Source: Phenylobacterium sp. RIFCSPHIGHO2_01_FULL_69_31 (GTDB lineage Bacteria > Pseudomonadota > Alphaproteobacteria > Caulobacterales > Caulobacteraceae). Taken from it: 64,000 bases of DNA. Location of the stretch: contig NZ_MHXN01000007.1 in NCBI RefSeq assembly GCF_001824475.1, forward strand, positions 131,611-195,610, given 5' to 3'. Shown here one piece after another: positions 7,345-10,564 of this stretch (position 1 is its first letter; each line of letters opens with the position of its first letter). Made by a program: the position numbers and the translations under genes. The notes beneath the pieces were generated by a model, which saw nothing but the letters and a program-made list of their open reading frames with translations, searched no databases and had not been told where the DNA came from.

Positions 7345-7808
7345 CAGTCGCGATGATAGGGCGATCCGGCGAGAATGGAGACAGCGCGATAGACCTGCTC
7401 GCACAGCATTGCCCGCGCGAGGGCGTGGGGCCAGGTCTGGGGCCCGAAGGCCAGGGTCCCCTGCGCCGCCTTCACGATCTCCGGGTCGAGGCCGTCGGCG
7501 CCGCCGATCAGGAACACCAGACGGCGCACGCCGCGATCCCGCAGCGTCCCGATCTCCTCGGCGAAGGCGCGGCTGGCGCGGGCCTTGCCGCGCTCGTCGC
7601 ACGCGATGACGTGGCTGTCGGCGAGGTGGGGCCGAAGCGCCTCGGCCTCGGCCGCCTTGCCGGGCTTGCGGCTCTCCACCTCGACCACCTCGACCGGCCC
7701 GAGGCCCAGGGAACGGCCGGCGGCGGTCGCGCGGTCGACGTAGAGTTTCACCAGCTCGGTCTCGGGCGAGCGGCTGAGCCGGCCGATGGCGACGACGGCG
7801 ATCTTCAC
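7344..7808 (-). CDS. rlmH: 23S rRNA (pseudouridine1915-N3)-methyltransferase
   Basis: SPOUT-class methyltransferase that modifies pseudouridine 1915 in helix 69 of 23S rRNA. 154 residues, the family length. Diagnostic parts are the N-terminal MKIAVVAIGRL strand, VIACDERGKARASRAFAEEI, the SAM-binding knot around FLIGGADGLDPE and the C-terminal LCEQVYRAVSILAGSPYHRD. The last element is nearly invariant in RlmH. The stop overlaps the envC start by one base. In many alphaproteobacteria rlmH follows rsfS directly; here asd and an amidase gene lie between them. Confidence 0.96.
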   Translation of the reverse strand: MKIAVVAIGRLSRSPETELVKLYVDRATAAGRSLGLGPVEVVEVESRKPGKAAEAEALRPHLADSHVIACDERGKARASRAFAEEIGTLRDRGVRRLVFLIGGADGLDPEIVKAAQGTLAFGPQTWPHALARAMLCEQVYRAVSILAGSPYHRD

Positions 7809-7812
7809 GCGG

Positions 7813-9204
7813 TCAGGTCAGGGCCGGCGGGGCCTTGAAGCCCCCGAACTCGCGCTCCAGCAGGCGGGCGAAGGCGATGGTCGTGCGGTCCTCGAGGTAG
7901 GGGCCGATGATCTGGGCGCCGATGGGCAGGCCGCCGCGGGTGAAGCCGATCGGCGCCGCCGTGGCGGGCAGGTTGGGCAGCAGGGCCACGCCCGGCCAGG
8001 CGATCTGGTTGAAGTAGGGCGTGGCCTGGCCATCGATGTTGAGGATGCGCCGCGCTCCGTCCGGCTCATCCACATGTTCGAACGCCACGACGCCGAACGT
8101 CGGCGTGATCACCACGTCGAAGCTCGCGAACAGCACAGCCCAGCGGCGGCAGAACATCACCTGCGCGTCGAGAGTGTTCATCCACTCGTGGGCGTTCATG
8201 GTCGTGCCGCCGGGCGAGCCCCTGGACATGGCCGCGCCGACCAGCGCCGAGAAGACGGCGTGCTGGGCGGCGAGGTCGGGCAGCAGATCGCTGGACCGGT
8301 CCACGCGCGCGCCCAGGTCGTCCAGGCGGCGCGCCAGGGCGTCCAGGGCGTCGCGGATCTCGTGGTCCGTCGCCGCCGCGGGATGCTGGTCCAAGACCAG
8401 CACCCGATAGTCGGCAAGCTCCGCGTGGCGTGGCGGCGGCAGGTTCAGGGCGTAGGCCTTGGCCTCGTGTGGCTCCGGCCCCGCGACGACGCCCAGCGCC
8501 AGGTCCAGGTCGGCGGCGCTGCGGGCGAGCGGGCCCACGACCGCCAAGGCGATCGGCCCGCCGTCCAGGCCGGGCGGCGCGTGTCCACGGGTCGGGACCA
8601 GGCCGTAGCTCGGCTTATGGCCGTAGACGCCGCAGAAGGCGGCCGGGACGCGGATCGAGCCGCCGATATCCGAGCCGAACTCGAGCGGAGTCATGCCGGC
8701 GGCGAGCGCGGCGGCGCTGCCGCCCGACGAGCCGCCCGGCGAAAGGCCAAGGTCCCACGGATTCTTCGTGCGGCCGTACACCGGATTGGTGCTCTGCCAG
8801 TCGGCGAGGAACGGCGGCACATTCGTCTTGCCCAGGATGATCGCGCCCGCCGCCTTGAGGCGGGCGACCGCCACGGCATCCCGCGGCGCGACCCAGCCGC
8901 TGAAGGCCGGGCTGCCCCAGGTGGACGGCAGGCCTTCCACCTCGTTGCTTTCCTTGACCGTCATCGGCAGGCCCAGCAGCGGGGTGCGCTCACCCCGCGC
9001 CAGGGCCACGTCGGCCGCCCGCGCAGCCTGTCGGGCCCGACCGAAGTCGCGGACGACGACGGCGTTGATCGCGCGGTCGCGGTCCTCGATGCGGGCGATG
9101 GCGGCGTCGGTCAGATCCAGCGCGCTCGCCTGGCCGGCGGCGAGCGCCGCAACGATCTCGCCGGCGGTCCGGTCCAGCAGGTCAAGGCTGAGCGTCTCGG
9201 ACAT
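7813..9204 (-). CDS. amidase signature family protein
   Basis: 463-residue amidase-signature enzyme, cytoplasmic, no signal peptide. The catalytic Ser-Ser-Lys triad is visible: Lys in PMTVKES near residue 83, the Gly/Ser-rich SPGGSSGGSAAALAAGM segment, and the nucleophile Ser in GSDIGGSIRVPAAFCG. The C-terminal LPIGAQIIGPYLEDRTTIAFARLLE is typical for this family of small-molecule amidases. It hydrolyses an amide bond, but the substrate is not predictable; it is not GatA, as no gatB/gatC is present. The stop lies four bases before the rlmH start. It and asd look inserted between rsfS and rlmH. Confidence 0.92.
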   Translation of the reverse strand: MSETLSLDLLDRTAGEIVAALAAGQASALDLTDAAIARIEDRDRAINAVVVRDFGRARQAARAADVALARGERTPLLGLPMTVKESNEVEGLPSTWGSPAFSGWVAPRDAVAVARLKAAGAIILGKTNVPPFLADWQSTNPVYGRTKNPWDLGLSPGGSSGGSAAALAAGMTPLEFGSDIGGSIRVPAAFCGVYGHKPSYGLVPTRGHAPPGLDGGPIALAVVGPLARSAADLDLALGVVAGPEPHEAKAYALNLPPPRHAELADYRVLVLDQHPAAATDHEIRDALDALARRLDDLGARVDRSSDLLPDLAAQHAVFSALVGAAMSRGSPGGTTMNAHEWMNTLDAQVMFCRRWAVLFASFDVVITPTFGVVAFEHVDEPDGARRILNIDGQATPYFNQIAWPGVALLPNLPATAAPIGFTRGGLPIGAQIIGPYLEDRTTIAFARLLEREFGGFKAPPALT

Positions 9205-9273
9205 CTTTGGGTTCTCCTCAAGACAAGGGTGGCCCGCCGGGCCGGGGCAAGTCCAGTCCGGCGAGTCGCCACC

Positions 9274-10344
9274 TCAGGAGGCGCCCACCAGCTCGCGCTG
9301 GCGCGCACCTTCCGACGCCGTCGGGAGCAGCCGCTCGGCGATCTGGACCGCGTTGAGCGCGGCGCCCTTCAGGAGCTGGTCGCCGGCCACGAACAGCGCC
9401 AGCGACCGGCCCGTGGGATCGCCCAGGTCGCGGCGGACCCGGCCGACCAGGACGTCGCCCTGCCCCTCCGCCTCGCACGGCATGGGGAAGTGGTTGCGCG
9501 CCCGATCGTCGATGACCCGCACGCCAGGCGCGGCCGCCAGGACTTCGCGCGCCAGGTCGGGATCCACCGGGCGGTCGAACTCGAGCGTCAGCGCGATGGC
9601 GTGGGCGCGCAGCACGGGCACGCGGATGCAGGTGACCCCGATCGGCAGGTCAGGCGTGTCGAGGATGCGGCGGCATTCCTCGATCACCTTCAGTTCCTCG
9701 CCGTTGTAGCCGCTCTCGGGATCGACGTCGGCGTTGTGGCTGAACAGGTTGAAGGCGTAGGGGTGCGGCAGGACCTGGGGCGCGAACGGCCGGCCGGCCA
9801 GCGCGGCCTCGGTGGAAGCGCGGAGCTCCTCCATGGCGGCAGCGCCGGCGCCCGAGGCGGCCTGGTAGGTCGCCATCTGCACGCGCTTCAGATTGAAGGC
9901 GCGGGCCAGAGGCGCCATCGCCACAGCGGCGATGATCGCCACGCAGTTGGGGTTGGCGACGATGCCGTGGTGCTCTGCCAGCGCCTCGGCGTTCACCTCG
10001 GGCACCACCAGCGGGCAGTCCGGATCCATGCGGAAGGCCGAAGAATTGTCCACCACCACCGCGCCGGCGGCCACGGCCTTGGGTCCGTAGACCTTGGACA
10101 GGCCGCTCCCCGCCGAGAACAGGGCGAGGTCCACGCCCTCGAAGCTTTCGTCGCCCAGCGCCTCGACGACCAGGGTCTGGCCCCTGAAGGCGATCTCGCG
10201 GCCCGCCGAGCGCGGCGAGGCCAGCAGCTTCAGGCTGGACAGCGGGAAGCCGCGCTGCTCCAGGCAGCGGACAATCTCGACACCGACGGCGCCGGTGGCG
10301 CCGACGATGGCGACGCGGGGATTTGCGGGAAGGGAATGCGGCAT
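9274..10344 (-). CDS. asd: aspartate-semialdehyde dehydrogenase
   Basis: Second step of the aspartate pathway: reduces L-aspartyl-4-phosphate to aspartate semialdehyde, precursor of Thr, Met, Ile, Lys and diaminopimelate. From the ATG at 10344 the protein is 356 residues. Visible: NADP fold GATGAVGVEIVRCLEQRGFP, the phosphate-binding DNSSAFRMD, the catalytic Cys134 in IVANPNCVAIIAA, GAGAAAMEEL and the C-terminal DQLLKGAALNAVQIAE. The C-terminus runs about ten residues past the usual end. Upstream lies a Thr-rich leader frame with alternative hairpins, so expression may be controlled by threonyl-tRNA supply. Confidence 0.97.
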   Translation of the reverse strand: MPHSLPANPRVAIVGATGAVGVEIVRCLEQRGFPLSSLKLLASPRSAGREIAFRGQTLVVEALGDESFEGVDLALFSAGSGLSKVYGPKAVAAGAVVVDNSSAFRMDPDCPLVVPEVNAEALAEHHGIVANPNCVAIIAAVAMAPLARAFNLKRVQMATYQAASGAGAAAMEELRASTEAALAGRPFAPQVLPHPYAFNLFSHNADVDPESGYNGEELKVIEECRRILDTPDLPIGVTCIRVPVLRAHAIALTLEFDRPVDPDLAREVLAAAPGVRVIDDRARNHFPMPCEAEGQGDVLVGRVRRDLGDPTGRSLALFVAGDQLLKGAALNAVQIAERLLPTASEGARQRELVGAS

Positions 10345-10390
10345 GGCTCTACGTCTCCTGGTTTGCGGAGGCGCGAGGTCTGGCTTCTCG

Positions 10391-10424
10391 GAAGAGGCTG
10401 CCCCGCGCGTCGGCGGGGCTCTTC
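10391..10424 (-). terminator. candidate attenuator hairpin before asd
   Basis: Minus-strand hairpin with GAAGAG and CCCCGC on the 5' arm pairing with GCGGGG and CTCTTC on the 3' arm. In plus coordinates 10413-10418 pairs with 10401-10406 and 10419-10424 with 10391-10396, with a four-base bulge (10397-10400) and a six-base loop, 12 pairs in all. It is not followed by a T tract. It lies 16 bases after the stop of the Thr-rich leader and 47 bases before asd. Bases 10411-10419 are also perfectly complementary to 10465-10473 inside the leader, giving a mutually exclusive antiterminator helix. Confidence 0.55.
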
Positions 10425-10439
10425 GGGATCGTGCCGGCT

Positions 10440-10520
10440 CTAGACCACGCACGTACCCGTCGACGCCCCGCCGGAGCGGGTCGTTTTCAGGGTAATCGTA
10501 ATGGTCATGACAGCGGTCAT
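10440..10520 (-). CDS. putative threonine leader peptide for asd attenuation
   Basis: A 26-codon frame ATG (10520) to TAG (10440), 96 bases upstream of asd. It encodes MTAVMTITITLKTTRSGG followed by ASTGTCVV: eight Thr and two Ile codons, concentrated in codons 2-14, which resembles the E. coli thrL peptide in composition. A weak AGG sits 8-10 bases upstream of the first ATG; a second in-frame ATG is at 10508. The segment coding for the SGG part is perfectly complementary to an arm of the downstream hairpin. Stalling at Thr codons would leave that segment free to block the hairpin and allow asd transcription. Peptide and mechanism are inferred. Confidence 0.6.
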   Translation of the reverse strand: MTAVMTITITLKTTRSGGASTGTCVV

Positions 10521-10564
10521 CGCCGCGCCTGTAGCGGGCGCGGGCGTGACTGTAAAGCGTGCGG

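Follow-up and report, generated by a model that had tools for sequence, protein, structure and literature searches.

A conserved leader-peptide switch in front of an alphaproteobacterial asd gene, most likely acting on translation

In the window (the whole 64,000-nucleotide stretch of DNA analysed here) the asd gene is preceded by a real, conserved leader-peptide switch, which we consider rather likely to be an attenuator that senses amino acids of the aspartate family (threonine foremost, with lysine and isoleucine) and controls the translation of asd. The product of Asd is the branch-point compound for lysine, diaminopimelate (cell wall), threonine, isoleucine and methionine, and the progress of the ribosome along the leader probably sets the amount of Asd that is made. 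Comparison of related sequences brings out the peptide, its codons, five helices and a promoter-like spacing, and the corresponding elements of the window are as follows.

10551..10556, minus strand: -35-like TTTACA of a putative leader promoter (TT[TG]AC is conserved in the family)
10528..10533, minus strand: -10-like TACAGG, 17 bases behind the -35-like element (sequence; position of TA in the family)
10440..10520, minus strand: leader peptide frame MTAVMTITITLKTTRSGGASTGTCVV, probably leaderless (sequence, family alignment)
10476..10480, minus strand: region 1 (CCCGC), partner of region 2 (1:2 in the swap test, p = 0.0008)
10465..10473, minus strand: region 2 (CGGCGGGGC), partner of region 1 or, alternatively, of region 3 (2:3 in the swap test, p = 0.0004)
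10391..10424, minus strand: hairpin 3:4 with its outer extension (folding; swap test 3:4, p = 0.006)
10411..10419, minus strand: region 3 (GCCCCGCCG), pairs perfectly with region 2
10401..10408, minus strand: region 4 (GCGCGGGG), partner of region 3 or, alternatively, of region 5 (4:5 in the swap test, p = 0.0002)
10367..10378, minus strand: region 5 (CCTCGCGCCTCC), partner of region 4 or, alternatively, of region 6 (5:6 in the swap test, p = 0.0002)
10351..10358, minus strand: region 6, the asd Shine-Dalgarno stretch GGAGACGT (sequence, swap test)
9274..10344, minus strand: asd, aspartate-semialdehyde dehydrogenase (NCBIfam TIGR01296)

The leader frame, its gene and its putative promoter

A sequence-only reading of this DNA had taken the gene directly behind the leader to be asd, and this was borne out by a match to NCBIfam TIGR01296 of 382 bits (cut-off 324) for the gene starting at 10344. 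The order on the minus strand is rsfS, leader, asd and an amidase-like gene, rsfS and asd being identified by NCBIfam. The Thr-rich frame described in that reading was also confirmed by the sequence: MTAVMTITITLKTTRSGGASTGTCVV has 26 codons, from the ATG at 10520 to the TAG at 10440 on the minus strand, with eight Thr and two Ile codons and additionally one Lys and two Met (start Met counted). An 885-codon ORF on the plus strand (window positions 7786–10443) overlaps asd and the amidase-like gene in antisense orientation and is probably a by-product of the high GC content.

The leader reaches a density of eight Thr, Lys or Ile (T/K/I) in 12 residues. That a chance frame merely adjoins a chance hairpin in GC-rich DNA draws some support from random 395-base segments of the window, 10 of 1500 of which (~0.7%) hold a small frame with at least seven T/K/I in 12, but it is contradicted by the conservation and covariation described below, and we give it practically no credence; leader frame and hairpin together are no accident.

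A poor ribosome-binding site had been listed as a weak point, and indeed none is present before the leader frame, as expected if the mRNA starts at the start codon. Between rsfS and the frame lies TTTACA-17-TACAGG, and in 98 of 100 family sequences TT[TG]AC is found 35–38 bases ahead of the leader start codon, the spacing expected if transcription starts at this codon; a TA dinucleotide mostly lies 12–15 bases ahead of it. A generic promoter scan of the region reported no promoter. The leader transcript is predicted to begin at or beside the leader start codon.

Conservation of the peptide within the family

The 220 bases before asd found matches in 84 of 299 family genomes at E ≤ 1e-6, own genome included (245 of 299 at E ≤ 0.1, many of these being short matches). 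We compared 100 distinct upstream sequences from loci picked by Asd similarity in the genus (L083–L111) and by DNA similarity (L112–L199); L143 and L200 were dropped, having no asd. The loci picked by DNA similarity are biased toward presence of the leader, and the 29 picked by Asd similarity alone are free of this bias, though they are those that scored best (the analysis covered 30 of the 48 places where an Asd of the window kind occurs, own genome included). A peptide of 23–29 residues from one aligned start was present in all 100 sequences (79 ATG, 21 GTG), and relatives without the frame, which according to the earlier reading would have spoken against a leader, were not encountered (0/100, most of them picked by DNA similarity and 29 by Asd only). 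The distance from the start codon to region 2 was 53, 56 or 59 bases in 98 of the 100 and 55 in the other two. Residues 2–14 were 32% Thr, 13% Lys and 12% Ile; a Lys codon occurred at codon 9 or later in 99/100, two codons behind this conserved Lys being mostly Thr, and Ile/Met and Thr/Ile usually stood before it. The same reading had looked to a family alignment for conserved Thr codons and for compensating changes in helices 2:3 and 3:4, and the alignment has both.

Codon usage in the leaders was also unusual, AAA making up 164 of 173 Lys codons in family leaders versus 7 of 537 in asd genes, and ATT 133 of 152 Ile codons versus 45 of 728, while the choice of Thr codons hardly differed between leaders and asd genes; outside the family the shift to AAA was weaker (35/77 in leaders versus 21/170). 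As ATT and ATC are read by the same tRNA, low structure could underlie the codon preference of the leaders, and low RNA structure may be a factor in the choice of both AAA and ATT, an explanation that is incomplete. With the conserved Lys codon as the anchor, codons 2–13 had no third-position excess (82/70/71; 41 synonymous, 123 not), which argues against selection for one particular amino-acid sequence.

The missing third-position bias would also suit a metabolite-binding riboswitch or a protein-binding site of which the small frame is a by-product, but under that explanation it is hard to see why the frame is open in 100/100, why the distances from start codon to region 2 differ by multiples of three in 98/100, or why Thr/Lys richness recurs in other families. 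A search of Rfam gave no match at E ≤ 1 to the window region and none to seven loci, and the riboswitch reading, which this also counts against, was rejected as very improbable.

Alternative helices between the leader frame and asd

The GC hairpin noted in the sequence-only reading was confirmed by folding, with arms GCCCCGC (10419–10413) and GCGGGGC (10406–10400) lengthened by GAAGAG/CTCTTC; its energy is -20.2 kcal/mol (z -2.2), and 5 of 200 shuffles did equally well. The 9-base complement within the frame is exact, 10473–10465 pairing perfectly with 10419–10411, and the stretch 10490–10400 folds at -54.9 kcal/mol (z -4.4), which none of 200 shuffles equalled. The mutually exclusive 2:3 and 3:4 proposed before asd are both kept in the family with compensating changes. 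The conserved block extends past hairpin 3:4 in the family alignments: near the Shine-Dalgarno site, most family members have CCCCGCGC as a possible partner for the 3' arm GCGCGGGG, and CCCCGCGC runs on as GCGCCTCC, which is able to pair with GGAGACGC of that site. A chain of alternative helices (1:2, 2:3, 3:4, 4:5 and 5:6) spans the distance from the frame to the asd Shine-Dalgarno stretch, each being kept despite sequence change. Other clades have new letters with the same pairing, e.g., 5:6 is CCTCCGG/CCGGAGG in L102 and 4:5 is GGCTGGGGTC/GACCTCGGCC in L104, while the L090 group has C-G replaced by U-A in 4:5 and L186 has an A-U pair in 1:2.

In a swap test with 13 cluster representatives, all five helices scored low p values (1:2, 0.0008; 2:3, 0.0004; 3:4, 0.006; 4:5, 0.0002; 5:6, 0.0002), which are only guides because the clusters are related, and the control pairs gave 0.85 (2:5), 0.27 (2:4), 1.0 (3:6), 0.84 (1:6) and 0.017 (4:6). 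An earlier version of the test, with 98 of the 100 rows and poorly cut segments, found 4:5 weak (-19.2 within versus -18.4 swapped); the final test is not blind to this one, because segments were lengthened after inspection of the clades. Pairing was also counted in an alignment of 46 sequences, the quality of which is low for some groups at regions 5 and 6. The off structure had 89.6% of its cells paired (43–53% in slid versions) and the on structure 91.3% (42–56% in slid versions), both exceeding all 500 shuffles. The covariation score rose above the shuffles for the on structure only, the off structure having no covariation beyond them in these 46 sequences.

The predicted ribosome stalling, folding order and effect on asd would run as follows. 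The mRNA would begin at or beside the leader start codon. With ample charged tRNA, the ribosome would reach the stop codon and cover regions 1 and 2, so that 3:4 forms, 5:6 masks the Shine-Dalgarno stretch and Asd production stays low. Under a shortage of charged Thr-, Lys- or Ile-tRNA, the ribosome would stall at about codons 6–12 over region 1, whereupon 2:3 and 4:5 would form and free the asd Shine-Dalgarno stretch; an untranslated leader would form 1:2 and enter the off state.

Leaders before asd in other families

A scan of 18 named loci (of 80) turned up Thr/Lys-rich frames with at least seven T/K/I in 12 before asd in 15, including those of Acidisphaera, Marivivens, Litoreibacter, Rhizobium and Bradyrhizobium. 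Among 24 loci of the class outside the family that were picked by Asd alone (E ≤ 1e-90), 15 have a Thr/Lys-rich peptide before asd, L229 is doubtful, and L233–L235, L238, L239, L241, L243 and L244 have no leader; further asd leaders, in G462, G453 and G478, came from a search with a covariance model. The richness in Thr and Lys recurs across families though the peptides otherwise differ. The earlier proposal of a Thr leader is right as to the Thr richness but too narrow: Lys and Ile codons are also present, and other families have such leaders.

For 30 outside loci (three leader-bearing Bradyrhizobium loci being left out) the segmentation required CCC and GGG in the arms, an earlier finder having at several loci picked out 4:5 as 3:4 and overlooked the terminators of L009 and L240. 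Eleven of the 30 (e.g., Bradyrhizobium and G329) have at least six T in the nine bases behind the stem, L009 and L240, identical between stop and start, yet counting twice among these, and 19 do not. The 19 U-poor loci passed the swap test for 3:4 (0.0001), 4:5 (0.0011) and 5:6 (0.0001), with all six controls above 0.15, and 2:3 was not significant in them (p 0.19; p 0.034 with 16 loci under the earlier segmentation). Where a U-tract is present (11 loci), the test supports 2:3 and 3:4 but neither 4:5 nor 5:6; three controls (2:4, 3:6 and 2:6) are likewise low there, at 0.015–0.034.

Transcription termination or Shine-Dalgarno control

The absence of a T tract after the hairpin, a weak point conceded in the sequence-only reading, is general in the family: at least six T in the nine bases behind the stem occur in 1 of 99 sequences (L096), and a terminator scan found none on the leader strand. 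Transcription termination, the output assumed in that reading, was thus not sustained, and 4:5 and 5:6 point to the Shine-Dalgarno site. Under classical transcription attenuation, 3:4 would terminate despite its poor tail, or Rho would, a stall would prevent this via 2:3, and 5:6 would be a side feature. This would agree with the conservation of 2:3 and 3:4 and with the true terminators behind like peptides at 11 of the 30 outside loci and at L096; we nevertheless think it unlikely, and dropped it as first choice, because in the other 98 family sequences the U-tract is missing while 4:5 and 5:6 are kept, and at the outside loci these two helices are not detectably kept where a U-tract is present.

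Control of translation, which we prefer, was assessed from the cost of opening the Shine-Dalgarno stretch. With folding of the local stretch, which presupposes that region 3 has been captured, this cost falls from 7.6 to 4.9 kcal/mol in the on state of the window and drops likewise in 77 of 97 family rows (mean 1.9 kcal/mol); taken by family cluster it falls in 8/13 (mean 0.6, p 0.27). Folding of longer leaders gave a fall in 19/27 (mean 1.0 kcal/mol). A control with region 2 scrambled, however, needs no more energy to open than the on state does (mean difference -0.01), contrary to the prediction of the model. Also against the model, the on-state fold of the window retains the CUCC/GGAG core of 5:6. 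Outside the family, the cost falls in 19/19 U-poor loci (mean 4.2 kcal/mol) and in 6/11 with a U-tract. These two groups do not differ in fold energy from hairpin to start codon (p 0.32), and they do differ in paired bases in the Shine-Dalgarno zone (8.9 vs 5.8 of 14, p 0.0016). L230–L232 combine a T-rich tail with a large drop in opening cost and may be hybrids of both outputs. The opening costs thus speak strongly for control of translation at the loci of other families and in the window, and unevenly among the family members; in this genome the output is most likely translational.

The leader and the two kinds of asd

Besides the window asd (9274–10344), the own genome carries a second one of another lineage (G000:C14:67498-68496), and only the window gene is preceded by the leader. 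The second gene, the canonical paralogue, was without a leader in all 20 genomes of the genus (20 genes), the best T/K/I count being 6 of 12, and a covariance model run on the own genome gave the asd leader as the sole strong match (147 bits, the next being at most 25 bits). In a tree of 58 Asd proteins (L182 was omitted as too short), the window Asd groups with other alphaproteobacterial Asd, and leader-bearing Asd from other family members form a separate group; support is 98/93 for a set of 38 rows that includes the first group but not the second, and 100/100 for the second group. Asd from other phyla sit between these two leader-bearing groups, and the leader-bearing L242 takes a third position. 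The gene rsfS adjoins asd of the window kind, within about 1.5 kb, in 5 of 28 tested loci, and was found beside none of the second kind within that distance. The leader DNA before both leader-bearing Asd kinds is alike (79% in G010 and 76% in G011 over about 147 bases). As far as such likeness can tell, it seems that the leader stayed with the function as asd changed, and either direction of exchange is possible.

Relation to known systems

In E. coli, thrL encodes a Thr/Ile leader peptide with no Lys codons, and an intrinsic terminator controls thrABC. The asd leader resembles thrL in the Thr and Ile codons of its peptide and in the exclusive helices 2:3 and 3:4; unlike thrL it has no U-tract behind 3:4, has a Lys codon and is without an Rfam match at E ≤ 1.

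The closest published finding is SEP5 of Sinorhizobium meliloti, a small frame like that of the asd leader, which has six Thr codons and three for Lys and lies in the 5'-UTR of what is termed aspartate dehydrogenase there; its translation was shown by Ribo-seq and Western blot, the authors suggest a possible leader peptide, and it is described as conserved only in Sinorhizobium (PMC10117765). The available description mentions no attenuator structure, unlike the leader described here (PMC10117765). Going by this description, SEP5 may be the same as the Rhizobium leaders L007, L221, L223 and L224, and the asd leader suggests a function for it. The available text of the same source describes trpL/peTrpL of S. 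meliloti as a leaderless alphaproteobacterial leader frame, as proposed here, but with Trp codons and transcription attenuation (PMC10117765). In Caulobacter crescentus, the model organism of the presumed family, the ilv and trpS leaders are small leader frames for other amino acids, and no asd leader is named in the available part of that account (PMC4117421). A sequestor hairpin on the Shine-Dalgarno site replaces the terminator in the translational T-boxes of actinobacterial ileS, which differ in sensing tRNA directly, with no peptide (PMC1262725, as available in part), and the ermC leader likewise has a Shine-Dalgarno sequestor and is said, in the portion available, to have no amino-acid specificity (PMC2965389). 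Nor is any asd leader named in the available portions of PMC4287350, PMC2965389, PMC8632094, PMC1273637 and PMC1262725; an earlier prediction elsewhere is possible.

We speculate, with about even confidence, that a widespread alphaproteobacterial leader family senses the charging of Thr, Lys and Ile tRNAs jointly for the aspartate branch, its output having been switched between termination and Shine-Dalgarno sequestration with the peptide kept, and the module having been kept while asd was exchanged for deeply diverged Asd lineages. If true, one element without an Rfam match would account for asd control in many alphaproteobacteria, one sensor with two readouts (termination and sequestration) would be open to comparison, multi-amino-acid sensing by a single peptide would become testable, and a leader would have outlived the exchange of its gene.

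Three further loci came to light as minor observations. L247, in the own genome (G000:C9:5873-6023), has a His-rich small frame, MTRTAHHHGHHHPTLAGSAGGLVA, and a similar hairpin before a gene resembling hisZ or hisS; in L269 (G480), a gene resembling dapA is preceded by a small frame that contains Lys, MQILKSKKTSPPGARGFVCA, and by a hairpin with a T-rich tail; and in L272 (G459) a hairpin resembling a terminator accompanies the small frame MFAQMHARKNAAMTRSGGPCGEFVR.
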